Below, one piece after another: positions 5,287 to 49,915 of a DNA stretch of 64,000 nucleotides; position 1 is the first letter of the stretch, and each line of letters opens with the position of its first letter. Under the pieces are notes generated by a model. The model worked only from the letters and a program-made list of their open reading frames with translations, was not told the origin of the DNA and did not search any database. Source of the DNA: Oscillospiraceae bacterium. GTDB taxonomy: Bacteria; Bacillota; Clostridia; Oscillospirales; Ruminococcaceae. The stretch is taken from contig WRKL01000002.1 of assembly GCA_009778115.1 (NCBI GenBank), forward strand, positions 1 to 64,000, given 5' to 3'. The position numbers and the translations under genes are program-made.

Positions 5287-5508
5287 TAGACCTCTTCGGA
5301 AATTAAAACATGATGTATGAACACAGATGATTTTTCGTAAAACAAGGAAATTTTGACGAGAGTATCATGGATATTTAAGGATAAATTAACGTCGTGTGAC
5401 GGAAAATCTTCCGTTCATACGCTGCGAAATGATTCACTGCGAAATAATTCACTGCGAAATGATTCACTGCGAAATGATTCGCTGCGAAATGATTTTCGAG
5501 ATGGTCTA
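5287..5508 (+). mobile_element. MITE-like element, copy A (222 bp, with expanded 15-bp repeats)
   Basis: It begins TAGACCTCTTCGGAAAT and ends TTTTCGAGATGGTCTA, which are imperfect terminal inverted repeats of about 17 bp with TA at each tip. The body is shared with copy B (35665-35824) base for base over most of its length. At 5399-5414 there is a small palindrome, ACGGAAAATCTTCCGT. Copy A carries five 15-bp repeats near its right end where copy B has one, which explains the size difference (222 against 160). There is no coding potential. A TA target duplication would fit mariner/IS630-type mobilisation in trans; that is inference. Confidence 0.8.
5421..5495. repeat. Five tandem 15-bp repeats inside MITE copy A
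   Basis: The unit GCTGCGAAATGATTC is repeated five times with one- or two-base differences. Other copies of the element have a single degenerate unit here, so the array arose by expansion within this copy. Confidence 0.9.
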
Positions 5509-33336: not shown

Positions 33337-33915
33337 CTAATTCTCTGTTTCTAATCTATTTTGCACATAAGACAATCCGATCAGCAATCCGGCTGCTACG
33401 GAAGTAATCACTATTTCGGGTCCCATATAACCTATGTTGTACACAAACGAGTACAGAACGGCAGACCAGTCTTCGGGAGCATATTCACCCCACACGATCG
33501 CACCTATGATAAAATGACAGACAAATCTTGCGGAAACTCCAAGTATACTTCCGGCTATAATCGACATAGCAGGATTTTTTATAATATCCTTAAATATTCC
33601 TGCCAGACCTACCACCGCGAACGCTACCAAAAAGTCCAAAACTATCACAGCGAAAAAAGACCCCGGTGTCTTCGCAAAGCTGGGAAGATCACCCAACCCC
33701 TGCAACAATAATTGCAGGACACCATGTACAAAACCGCAGCCTATTCCCCAGCGCACACCATATTTATACGCTAAAAATACGATAGGCAGCATACTCGCGG
33801 GAGTGATTGATCCGCCGTAAGCCCAAAACGCTCCTATTTTGAAATAAGACAGTGCCAGACCTAACGCCAGCAACACCCCGCTTTCGGCAAGCATAAATGT
33901 TTTTCTGTTCTCCAT
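33337..33915 (-). CDS. thiT: Thiamine transporter ThiT (ECF S component)
   Basis: A 192-residue membrane protein with six spans. It has the ThiT-like features A-S-M-L-P-I-V-F-L-A-Y-K-Y-G-x-x-W-G, H-G-V-L-Q-L, and the stretch S-A-R-F-V-C-H-F-I-I-G. It binds thiamine and works with an ECF energising module (EcfA, EcfA', EcfT) that is not in this window. The start at 33915 has an AAAGGAA site; a longer frame exists. The TPP riboswitch upstream confirms the substrate. Confidence 0.93.
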   Translation of the reverse strand: MENRKTFMLAESGVLLALGLALSYFKIGAFWAYGGSITPASMLPIVFLAYKYGVRWGIGCGFVHGVLQLLLQGLGDLPSFAKTPGSFFAVIVLDFLVAFAVVGLAGIFKDIIKNPAMSIIAGSILGVSARFVCHFIIGAIVWGEYAPEDWSAVLYSFVYNIGYMGPEIVITSVAAGLLIGLSYVQNRLETEN

Positions 33916-33960
33916 TTTAAAAAATTCCTTTCTATTTAAGCGCAATAAAATACGCCTTAA

Positions 33961-34030
33961 TACAAAATAAAAATCCCACAATCTTTACAGTCGATACAGT
34001 AATACCTGTTAAGTCTGTGAAATTTGTGGA
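33961..34030 (-). terminator. Riboswitch expression platform (terminator hairpin)
   Basis: On the minus strand CCACAAATTTCACAG pairs with CTGTAAAGATTGTGG at 33975-34030, followed by ATTTTTATTTT. It lies between the TPP aptamer and thiT and is the probable terminator formed when TPP is bound. Confidence 0.65.
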
Positions 34031-34042
34031 ACTATCAATAAA

Positions 34043-34128
34043 TCTCCCTACGACGGTATTAACCATATCAGGTTCAAAGGGACCGGAGGGGATTCCTCAC
34101 ATCTCAGCCGTTTATACAGCGCCCCTGA
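34043..34128 (-). promoter_or_regulatory. TPP (THI-box) riboswitch
   Basis: On the minus strand the aptamer shows CAGGGGCGC at the 5' side and GCTGAGAT. CCTTTGAACCTGAT follows, then GGTTAATACCG and CGTAGGGA, i.e. all conserved blocks of the thiamine pyrophosphate riboswitch in order. It stands upstream of thiT and should turn it off when TPP is plentiful. Confidence 0.96.
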
Positions 34129-34151
34129 TTTTTATGTATTCATTTTTTATT

Positions 34152-34460: not shown

Positions 34461-35480
<1,020 letters not shown>

Positions 35481-35504: not shown

Positions 35505-35651
35505 GTGAAGCATATCAAAACAATTTATCGCCGTGATTTGAAAAAAACCGTTAAAACAGGCGGATGCGGCGAATGTCAAACTTCTTGTCAGTCGGCGTGC
35601 AAGACCAGCTGCACTGTAGCCAATCAAAAATGTGAAAATTTGCAAAAATAG
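35505..35651 (+). CDS. scfA: SCIFF ranthipeptide precursor (six cysteines in forty-five)
   Basis: A 48-codon gene starting with GTG at 35505 behind an AAGGGG site. The peptide starts with M-K-H-I-K-T-I and has G-G-C-G-E-C-Q-T-S-C-Q-S-A-C-K-T-S-C, then T-V-A-N-Q-K-C-E-N. The cysteines are residues 21, 24, 28, 32, 36 and 43. This is the highly conserved SCIFF family, whose cysteine sulfurs are joined by a radical SAM enzyme to carbons of acceptor residues (thioether bonds off the alpha carbon, hence ranthipeptide). The maturase gene follows after 300 bases. SCIFF is nearly universal in Clostridia; a role in quorum-like or metabolic control has been suggested but is not settled. Confidence 0.95.
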   Translation: MKHIKTIYRRDLKKTVKTGGCGECQTSCQSACKTSCTVANQKCENLQK

Positions 35652-35664
35652 CAAAAACTTTTAA

Positions 35665-35824
35665 TAGACCTCCTCGGAAATCAAAACGATGTATGAACAC
35701 AGATGATTTTTCGTCATACAAGGCAATTTTGACGAGAATATCATGGATATTTAAGGATAAACTAACGCCGTGTGACGGAAAATCTTCCGTTCATGCGTTG
35801 CGTAATGATCTTCGAGAAGGTCTA
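35665..35824 (+). mobile_element. MITE-like element, copy B (160 bp)
   Basis: It begins TAGACCTCCTCGGAAAT and ends ATCTTCGAGAAGGTCTA. It matches copy A over nearly its full length and in the same orientation, but it has only one 15-bp unit. The palindrome ACGGAAAATCTTCCGT stands at 35775-35790. It has inserted, or been kept, in the gap between the SCIFF precursor and its maturase, starting 13 bases after the precursor's stop codon. Confidence 0.8.
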
Positions 35825-35853
35825 ATTATCGGCTGCACCCATGTGCCTTTGTA

Positions 35854-35929
35854 CCCGATAAATTCGGTTGCGTATGTTAATACGATCCCGAATTTATCGG
35901 GATTGCCGATTAAAACGGCAAAATCTTTT
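35854..35929 (+). promoter_or_regulatory. Strong hairpins before the SCIFF maturase
   Basis: CCCGATAAATTCGG (35854-35867) and CCGAATTTATCGGG (35888-35901) are a perfect 14-pair inverted repeat whose loop contains a further CGTAT/ATACG stem. Next comes TGCCG-x7-CGGCA followed by AAAATCTTTTT (35904-35929), which looks like a weak terminator. Together they may attenuate read-through from the precursor into the maturase, giving more peptide than enzyme. Confidence 0.55.
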
Positions 35930-35953
35930 TGAACAAACCCTTAGGAGATTTCT

Positions 35954-37348
35954 TTGAACAATATACATAAATTTACCCTGAACGGTTATTATATAGTTCT
36001 TGATGTTCCGAGCGGAGCCATACACAGCGTTGACGAGCTTACCTATGAATTGCTTGGTATTATATGCTTCGACGAGCATGGAACGCCTGTTTTGCCGCCG
36101 GATGCGAACAAAACTCTTACCCGATATAGCAGGGATGAGATAGACGAAACGTTTGCAGAAATATATGAATTGTATCAGGACGGACTGCTGTTCAGCACAG
36201 ACGAACGGGTAGACGAATCTGTATATAATACAAAAAATGCCACGGTCAAAGCCCTTTGCTTGCATATCGCACATGATTGCAACCTGCGTTGTAAATATTG
36301 TTTTGCGGACAAAGGAACTTTCGGACAGGAAAAAGAATGGATGCGTGCAGAAACCGGAATCGCGGCTATTGATTTTTTAGCTGCAAATTCATCATTCCGC
36401 ACAAATCTGGAAGTAGATTTTTTCGGCGGGGAGCCGCTGATGAACTACGAGGTTGTGAGGACTGTCGTAGATTATGCGCGCGGTATAGAAAAAGATTTGG
36501 GCAGGCGCTTCAGATTCACATTGACTACCAACGGATTGGCATTAAATGATGCTATCATTGAACACATCAACCGGGAAATTGACAATGTCGTGCTTTCTTT
36601 GGACGGGCGCAGGGAGGTCAACGACCGAATGCGTCCGCGGATCGACGGTAAAAGCAGTTATGACATAGTCGTCGAAAAATTCCAAAAGCTTGTAAAACTG
36701 CGCCGCAGCGGACAAAGCAAAAGCCGCTCTGTTTCTTATCCGGATTATTTTATCCGCGGTACCTTTACCCGGAACAATCTTGATTTTTGCGAAGACGTTT
36801 TGCATATTGACGGTTTAGGGTTCGATCACATTTCGATAGAACCTGCAATCGGTATAAATAATGATTTTGTGATTGGGGAGCAAGATCTCCCTATAATCTT
36901 TGATGAATACGAAAGGCTTGCTAAATTACTCATAAAAAAAGAGCGTATTGGAAAACACATATGCTTCTTCCATTTCAACCTGGATTTGAGCGGGGGACCG
37001 TGCTTGCTTAAACGGCTGAAAGGCTGTGGTGCGGGTGTTGAATATCTGGCAGTCACTCCGTCGGGGGATATTTATCCTTGCCATCAATTTGTGGGTATAC
37101 CGGAATGGCAGATGGGGAATGTGCATACCGGAAAACTTGATGTGAATAAAAAAACAACCTTTTCCAAAACCTCTATTTACGAAAAAAAAGGATGCGCAGA
37201 TTGCTGGGCACGTTATTTTTGCAGTGGTGGCTGCAACGCAAACAATTACAAATATGCACAGGATATTTTAACCCCATATAATATCGAATGTGAATTACAA
37301 AAAAAGCGGCTCGAGTGCGCCATTATGATGAATGTATCCAAAGGATGA
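35954..37348 (+). CDS. scfB: SCIFF radical SAM maturase (SPASM domain)
   Basis: A 464-residue protein. An N-terminal recognition-type domain covers about residues 1-95. The radical SAM motif C-N-L-R-C-K-Y-C follows near residue 115, and G-G-E-P-L near 157. A C-terminal SPASM/Twitch region carries many cysteines (G-C-G-A-G, Y-P-C-H, then C-A-D-C and F-C-S-G-G-C) for two auxiliary Fe-S clusters. It cuts SAM to a radical and forms the thioether bonds in the SCIFF peptide. It starts at TTG 35954 with an AGGAG site six bases upstream. Its stop lies four bases before the prfB start, so prfB is probably co-transcribed. Confidence 0.95.
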   Translation: MNNIHKFTLNGYYIVLDVPSGAIHSVDELTYELLGIICFDEHGTPVLPPDANKTLTRYSRDEIDETFAEIYELYQDGLLFSTDERVDESVYNTKNATVKALCLHIAHDCNLRCKYCFADKGTFGQEKEWMRAETGIAAIDFLAANSSFRTNLEVDFFGGEPLMNYEVVRTVVDYARGIEKDLGRRFRFTLTTNGLALNDAIIEHINREIDNVVLSLDGRREVNDRMRPRIDGKSSYDIVVEKFQKLVKLRRSGQSKSRSVSYPDYFIRGTFTRNNLDFCEDVLHIDGLGFDHISIEPAIGINNDFVIGEQDLPIIFDEYERLAKLLIKKERIGKHICFFHFNLDLSGGPCLLKRLKGCGAGVEYLAVTPSGDIYPCHQFVGIPEWQMGNVHTGKLDVNKKTTFSKTSIYEKKGCADCWARYFCSGGCNANNYKYAQDILTPYNIECELQKKRLECAIMMNVSKG

Positions 37349-37352
37349 AAAA

Positions 37353-38459
37353 ATGTTTGAACCGTTAATTTTTGAAGAATTTAAAATTGAATTAAACTCC
37401 GCGGATTCCGAATTGAATGAATTGGAAAAAGCGATGGATATACCCGGATTGTCTGAAAAATTGGCACAATTGGAAGCCCAGACAATTGGCGGCGAATTTT
37501 GGTGTGACACAAAAAAATCAGGGGTAGTGCTGAAAGAAATAACCGCCGTAAAAGGAAAAATCAAAGCTTTTAACAAATTAAAGGAACTGCGCGAAGATGT
37601 CTTTACTTTGATAGAAATAGCCCTTGAGGAATCTGATGGATCATTGGAAAATGAAATCAAAAAAAGTCTTCACACCCTCAAAACCGAAACCGAAACCCAA
37701 AGCCTTGCCATTCTGCTTACAGGTGAATACGATGCTAAAAACGCGATCCTGTCCTTTCATGCAGGCGCCGGCGGAACCGAAGCGCAGGACTGGGTCGCGA
37801 TGCTGTACCGTATGTATACAAGATGGACTGAACGCCACGGATATAAGATAAAAACCTTGGATATTTTATCCGGCGAGGAAGCGGGTATAAAAAGCGTAAC
37901 GGTCTTGATAGAGGGTTTAAATGCTTACGGTTTTCTCAAATCTGAAAGCGGCGTACACAGACTTGTGCGTATATCACCGTTTGATGCATCGGGTAGGCGG
38001 CACACATCTTTCGCATCGTTGGAAGTAATGCCTGAAATTGAAGAAAATACCGAAATCGAGCTAAAAGAAGAAGATTTGCGATTTGATACCTATCGCGCGA
38101 GCGGAGCGGGAGGACAGCACGTTAACAAAACCGAGTCGGCGGTACGCGTCACTCATCTGCCCACAGGCATAGCTGCCGCTTGTCAAAATGAACGCAGCCA
38201 AATGCAAAACAAAGCCGTTGCGATTAAAATGCTGCTTGCCAAACTTGCGGAAATAAAAGCGCGTGAACACCTCGAAAAAATAGAGGACATCAAAGGTGTC
38301 CAACGCGAAATTGCATGGGGCTCACAAATCCGCTCCTATGTTTTCATGCCATACACACTGGTTAAAGATCATCGCACCAACTTCGAAAACGGAAATATCA
38401 ATGCGGTTATGGACGGGGATTTAGATGGGTTTATTAACGCATACCTTATTTCCTGTTAA
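37353..38459 (+). CDS. prfB: Peptide chain release factor 2
   Basis: A 368-residue RF2 recognising UGA and UAA. The stop-codon reading motif S-P-F lies in I-S-P-F-D-A-S-G-R-R-H-T-S, and the catalytic G-G-Q in S-G-A-G-G-Q-H-V-N-K. Many bacteria make RF2 through a +1 frameshift at an in-frame TGA near codon 25; here the frame is open throughout, so that autoregulation is absent. A start at 37353 with AAAGGATG is preferred over the ATG at 37332 inside the maturase gene. Confidence 0.96.
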   Translation: MFEPLIFEEFKIELNSADSELNELEKAMDIPGLSEKLAQLEAQTIGGEFWCDTKKSGVVLKEITAVKGKIKAFNKLKELREDVFTLIEIALEESDGSLENEIKKSLHTLKTETETQSLAILLTGEYDAKNAILSFHAGAGGTEAQDWVAMLYRMYTRWTERHGYKIKTLDILSGEEAGIKSVTVLIEGLNAYGFLKSESGVHRLVRISPFDASGRRHTSFASLEVMPEIEENTEIELKEEDLRFDTYRASGAGGQHVNKTESAVRVTHLPTGIAAACQNERSQMQNKAVAIKMLLAKLAEIKAREHLEKIEDIKGVQREIAWGSQIRSYVFMPYTLVKDHRTNFENGNINAVMDGDLDGFINAYLISC

Positions 38460-40089: not shown

Positions 40090-40160
40090 TAGACCTCCTC
40101 GAAAATCATTTCGCAGCGTATGAACGGAAGATTTTCCGTCACGTTTTAATTCCCGAGGAG
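40090..40160 (-). mobile_element. MITE-like element, copy C (71 bp deletion derivative, inverted)
   Basis: Relative to copies A and B this copy is reversed. It retains one complete tip (TAGACCTCCTCGAAAATCA), the palindrome at 40124-40139, and the reversed left end GTTTTAATTCCCGAGGAG with the last GTCTA decayed. About 90 internal bases are missing. It stands between murB and rapZ. Confidence 0.75.
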
Positions 40161-40213
40161 TTTTGTTATCTTGGAATTGGCATTATATTAAATTTTACTC
40201 TTGGTCAATGTTT

Positions 40214-49674: not shown

Positions 49675-49830
49675 AATCACTGCTCCTTCCACATGAAACC
49701 ACAATTTTTACCAGTCGGCTTCTAAATATTACCTGATCTGTAGACCGCCTCTGATGTATATATACATTATACACCAGAGCTATAGGATAAATCAAGCCTT
49801 TTTTGCTTACTTTTATTTTTATTTAGTTTA

Positions 49831-49915
49831 ATATGGATATTTGAGGATAAATTAACGCCGTGCGACGGGAAATCTCCCGTTCATTATGTTGCGGAGTTAT
49901 TTTCGAGGGGGTCTA
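49831..49915 (+). mobile_element. MITE-like element, copy D (5' truncated)
   Basis: It matches copies A and B from ATGGATATTT to the right end, TTTTCGAGGGGGTCTA. The left part is absent. The palindrome at 49865-49880 reads ACGGGAAATCTCCCGT: compared with the other copies both partners of one base pair have changed (A-T to G-C), so pairing is kept. Confidence 0.7.

Follow-up and report, generated by a model that had tools for sequence, protein, structure and literature searches.

SCIFF ranthipeptides are widespread in Clostridia, and their biological role is still poorly known. In operons for peptide natural products, partial terminators stand between precursor and modification genes, as in the nisA-nisB type. 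The SCIFF spacer is like this type in having a hairpin directly after the precursor gene and the modification gene downstream. It differs in that read-through is only predicted for SCIFF and in that it is conserved over an order as an architecture, not as a sequence.

The SCIFF loci CteA/CteB and Tte1186a, both from Clostridia, are the closest described systems. The locus analysed here resembles them in its six-cysteine precursor with Cys32, Thr34 and Thr37, in its maturase (500 bits to CteB) and in the adjacent, co-directional arrangement of the two genes. CteA contains one thioether, from Cys32 to Thr34 or Thr37 (PMC8326336). In the SCIFF loci of relatives the most frequent flanking genes are TIGR04086/YajC upstream and SecD/ProC downstream, whereas the flanking genes here are gapA and prfB. 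The spacer here also differs in holding a MITE.

Correia/NEMIS, RUP and ERIC elements are 100-200 bp long, with inverted ends, a short target duplication, tens to more than 100 intergenic copies, a stable RNA fold and size variants (PMC10969869, PMC2229807). The MITE family described here is like them in all of these features. It differs from them in its 3-bp ANT duplication, in that no autonomous relative was found in the metagenome-assembled genome (MAG), and in that the repeat occurs in none of 60 relatives.

Identity of the scfA-scfB pair

The window, which is the whole stretch of 64,000 nt that was analysed, contains the following features at and around the SCIFF locus.

34461..35480, plus strand: gapA, type I glyceraldehyde-3-phosphate dehydrogenase (TIGR01534, 435 bits; cut-off 367)
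35505..35651, plus strand: scfA, six-cysteine SCIFF ranthipeptide precursor (48 aa, GTG start, ribosome-binding site AAAGGGGA; TIGR03973 and PF13165 above cut-offs)
35663..35665: left AAT copy of the target-site duplication (27 of 37 family copies have identical 3-bp ANT flanks)
35666..35823, plus strand: MITE copy of 158 bp with inverted ends AGACCTCCTCGG / CTTCGAGAAGGTCT, one end-to-end hairpin
35824..35826: right AAT copy of the target-site duplication (3-bp flank comparison of MITE copies)
35854..35901, plus strand: native, non-MITE spacer hairpin with 22-nt arms and a 4-nt loop
35903..35930 (stem 35903-35921), plus strand: weak terminator-like stem-loop, TTGCCG-ATTAAAA-CGGCAA then AATCTTTTT (terminator finder)
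35954..37348, plus strand: scfB, radical SAM/SPASM SCIFF maturase (464 aa, TTG start after AGGAGA; TIGR03974 above cut-off)
37354..38459, plus strand: prfB, release factor 2 (TIGR00020 above cut-off)

In profile searches, the scfA product scores 87.1 bits against TIGR03973 (cut-off 50) and 89.6 bits against PF13165 (cut-off 27). Its six cysteines are at positions 21, 24, 28, 32, 36 and 43. The scfB product scores 624 bits against TIGR03974 (cut-off 425), a match that covers residues 4-461 of 464. The best solved structure for it is CteB (5wgg/5why; E 5e-149, 500 bits), which aligns over the length of scfB. In this alignment the radical-SAM CxxxCxxC motif reads CNLRCKYC, and the SPASM cysteines are also retained. 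Judged by the families of the precursor and the full-length maturase, this is a SCIFF ranthipeptide locus. The original prediction of an intact SCIFF pair is congruent with these results, as both proteins are full-length members above curated family cut-offs. Its expectation that the peptide loses six hydrogens is not, as the review gives only one thioether for CteA (PMC8326336).

SCIFF is present in 146 of the 197 genomes in a survey of the order Oscillospirales. One scfB homologue (L036, G015:C20:3558-4919) contains a single in-frame TAG.

The MITE copy and its family

The scfA-scfB gap is 302 nt long (35652-35953). The MITE is inserted 14 nt past the scfA stop, 5' of the native spacer hairpin, and leaves the ribosome-binding sites of both genes untouched. 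Its inverted ends are imperfect. A MITE between precursor and maturase had been predicted, and the repeat family, the inverted ends and the AAT/AAT duplication bear this out. The element is smaller than had been thought, with 158 bp instead of 160 bp, and occupies about half of the gap, not most of it. Its RNA is predicted to fold into a single long hairpin of -61.9 kcal/mol (z -7.9), and a transcript of the locus would carry this hairpin, as had also been proposed.

In a repeat search of relatives, the MITE repeat is found in 0 of 60 genomes. The original prediction had named the same sequence in the gap of related genomes as the outcome that would count against it; this outcome was not observed, and by its distribution the insertion is lineage-specific. 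The copy departs from the family consensus at 14 of 160 positions, which places it among the more diverged full-length copies and argues that it is not the newest insertion.

The family has at least 40 copies in the same MAG by BLAST. With up to two mismatches, its terminal repeat is found at 192 sites in 1.45 Mb, compared with 6 sites for the reversed pattern. This MAG (G000) is 65% complete and contains roughly one element per 12-15 kb. The copies fetched are 120-220 bp long, with an additional 76-bp copy at 40090. Within the window, elements are present at 5287-5508, 35666-35823, 40090-40165 and 49741-49915, and all four are located between co-directional genes. The elements are short, contain no transposase gene, and have inverted ends, a target duplication and many copies, as expected of a MITE. 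The copies were compared for compensatory change in the stem. Of 91 pairs that are changed, 58 still pair, only 4 of them with both sides changed, which is no clear sign of compensation.

The ends of 37 copies were re-read. Identical 3-bp flanks are present in 27, and every one is ANT. A TA target duplication of the IS630-like type was rejected because a 3-bp ANT duplication explains the flanks better. Such a duplication would fit the ISL2 group of the IS5 family, a candidate group for this MITE; in the literature searched, no confirmation of this group trait was found. Profile searches of the 65%-complete MAG for a parent transposase gave no match to PF13359, PF13586 or PF13613. Three PF01609 genes were rejected as the parent, as they are not flanked by MITE ends.

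The outer end of the inverted repeat reads outward as CGAGGAGGTCTA, which contains a Shine-Dalgarno-like AGGAGG. This is seen at window 40090-40165 (minus-strand reading) and at the MITE copies L040, L045, L047, L061, L069 and L075. In several copies the Shine-Dalgarno-like end is followed directly by ATG, formed from the AAT duplication and a G. As the ribosome-binding site of scfB the MITE end was rejected, since the AGGAGA of scfB itself is located 130 nt further on.

The scfA-scfB spacer and expression of the maturase

In the window, the native spacer without the MITE and one AAT is 141 nt long and is predicted to fold still, at -44 kcal/mol. The hairpin at 35854-35901 was rejected as a second repeat family, as it is present in a single copy in the genome. 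Taken alone, the terminator-like element at 35903-35930 is within chance, since 4.5 kb contain 7 sites of this kind and 5.1 would be expected. A consensus promoter scan found no promoter-like site in the gap.

The spacer was compared in 66 other loci and then in an independent set, which consists of 40 loci whose genera are not represented among the first 66. A terminator-like element was defined as a G+C stem followed by a U-run and was scored in gaps of 40 nt or more. The control consists of 85 other co-directional gaps from the same contigs, called with a crude ORF caller. In the 66 loci, the gap is 0-307 nt long (median 105). Among gaps of 40 nt or more, 57 of 62 fold better than shuffles (z < -2), and all 62 contain a predicted hairpin of -14 kcal/mol or lower. 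The stem and U-run are present on the sense strand in 53 of 62 gaps, on the antisense strand in 21 of 62, and in 25 of 85 control gaps; the Fisher p of 6e-12 for the comparison with the control overstates the case, as the loci are related by descent and not fully independent, although most are from different genera. In the independent set, the element is found in 31 of 36 gaps of 40 nt or more on the sense strand and in 17 of 36 on the antisense strand, against a shuffled mean of 1.4. Taken together, the two sets have the element in 84 of their 98 gaps of this length. The terminator-like element is more frequent than chance as a class and weak at the window's own locus. Judged by the predicted folds, a hairpin between precursor and maturase is the usual state of a SCIFF locus, with or without a MITE, which the original prediction had overlooked. 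No report of a terminator in the SCIFF spacer was found in the open-access literature searched; subscription papers may hold one.

The hairpin is a strong tendency and not a rule. It is not indispensable, because 8 of the 106 other loci, including that of the same-genus genome G001, have gaps of 0-8 nt without a hairpin (L011, L038, L105, L111, L177, L179, L195 and L206). These loci are possibly translationally coupled instead.

We consider it fairly probable that the locus is a standard SCIFF operon with an attenuator in the spacer, into which a MITE was inserted with small effect. Here, scfA and scfB would be transcribed together on a single mRNA, and partial termination at the spacer hairpin would pass only part of the polymerases into scfB. 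The precursor would thereby be in excess, and the hairpin probably keeps the maturase scarcer than the peptide. The position of the stem is consistent with this. Its median position is 20 nt past the scfA stop, with a median of 39 nt left before scfB. Of the 84 loci in which a stem was called, 60% have less than 45 nt between stem and scfB, which is too little for a promoter and a leader. A separate scfB promoter is thus unlikely, and scfB is probably transcribed by read-through of the attenuator. The weakness of the window's own element and the hairpin-less 8-nt gap of G001 argue against an attenuator. Whether SCIFF loci across Clostridia share such a read-through attenuator after the precursor gene is evenly poised; it would be conserved as architecture and not sequence, would set the precursor:maturase ratio, possibly in a regulated way, and would allow a structured 158-bp mobile element to be added.

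In this lineage, an abundant IS-type MITE was inserted after the scfA stop with duplication of AAT, which adds a predicted 158-nt RNA hairpin. Under the attenuator reading, its likeliest effect would be small, either neutral or extra processing of the mRNA. Neutrality is the simplest expectation, and the MITE is probably tolerated in a spacer already filled with hairpins. Some effect is possible because RNase III can cleave MITE hairpins of the Correia/NEMIS type once they are transcribed (PMC10969869, PMC2229807). By analogy, the MITE may add an RNase III site, and a cut there would further part scfA from scfB mRNA. The insertion is ordinary and matters mainly as a sign that the spacer tolerates insertion. 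The widespread terminator-like spacer is the more useful finding, as it offers a testable rule for setting precursor and maturase levels.

The hairpin might instead mainly shield a processed scfA mRNA at its 3' end and not terminate transcription, with the MITE as reinforcement. The hairpin found in every gap of 40 nt or more among the 66 loci is consistent with this, as are the approximately 14% of gaps without a U-run and a Butyrivibrio stem without a strong one. The sense bias of the stem and U-run (53 against 21 of 62) fits termination, and we regard protection as the main role as rather unlikely. The Butyrivibrio stem is a conserved GGCAGCGGC/GCCGCTGCC pair with a variable loop, found mostly in this genus (L083, L086, L088, L090-L093, L099, L103, L113 and L118). 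The same gaps contain an additional outer stem of the AACTAAATAGTTTT type.

It is decidedly doubtful that the hairpin terminates transcription completely and that scfB is driven from a separate promoter, here perhaps in the MITE or in the next 130 nt. The frequency of the terminator-like element would agree with full termination, and the window gap is long enough for a promoter. The promoter scan, the short distance between stem and scfB in most stem-bearing loci, and the 0-8 nt gaps, which imply co-transcription there, are not congruent with separate units.

Neighbouring genes

Between the gapA stop and scfA there are 24 nt, in which no terminator was called, and prfB starts 5 nt past the scfB stop. 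Since only 24 nt separate them, gapA and scfA are likely co-transcribed in this organism. Upstream of scfA, the commonest neighbours are TIGR04086/DUF3792 membrane proteins (12 of 53), and gapA is found in 1 of 53, the window genome only. Downstream, SecD/SecF and ProC are commonest (8 of 30 each). Neither gapA nor prfB adjoins scfA or scfB in any other locus examined. The original prediction saw in gapA a link with glycolytic expression; a conserved tie is not supported because this neighbour is unique to the window genome. A regulatory role for which the MITE was acquired, linking SCIFF expression to gapA or tuning the one with the other, is very improbable: the 24-nt distance would favour this, but the adjacency is unique, and the same family is scattered genome-wide with all four window copies between co-directional genes.

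No programmed frameshift is present in prfB, which is read in one continuous frame. On the minus strand, a TPP riboswitch (Rfam RF00059, 78 bits) is located at window 34028-34136, upstream of a membrane protein ORF at 33337-33981 that is probably a thiamin transporter.
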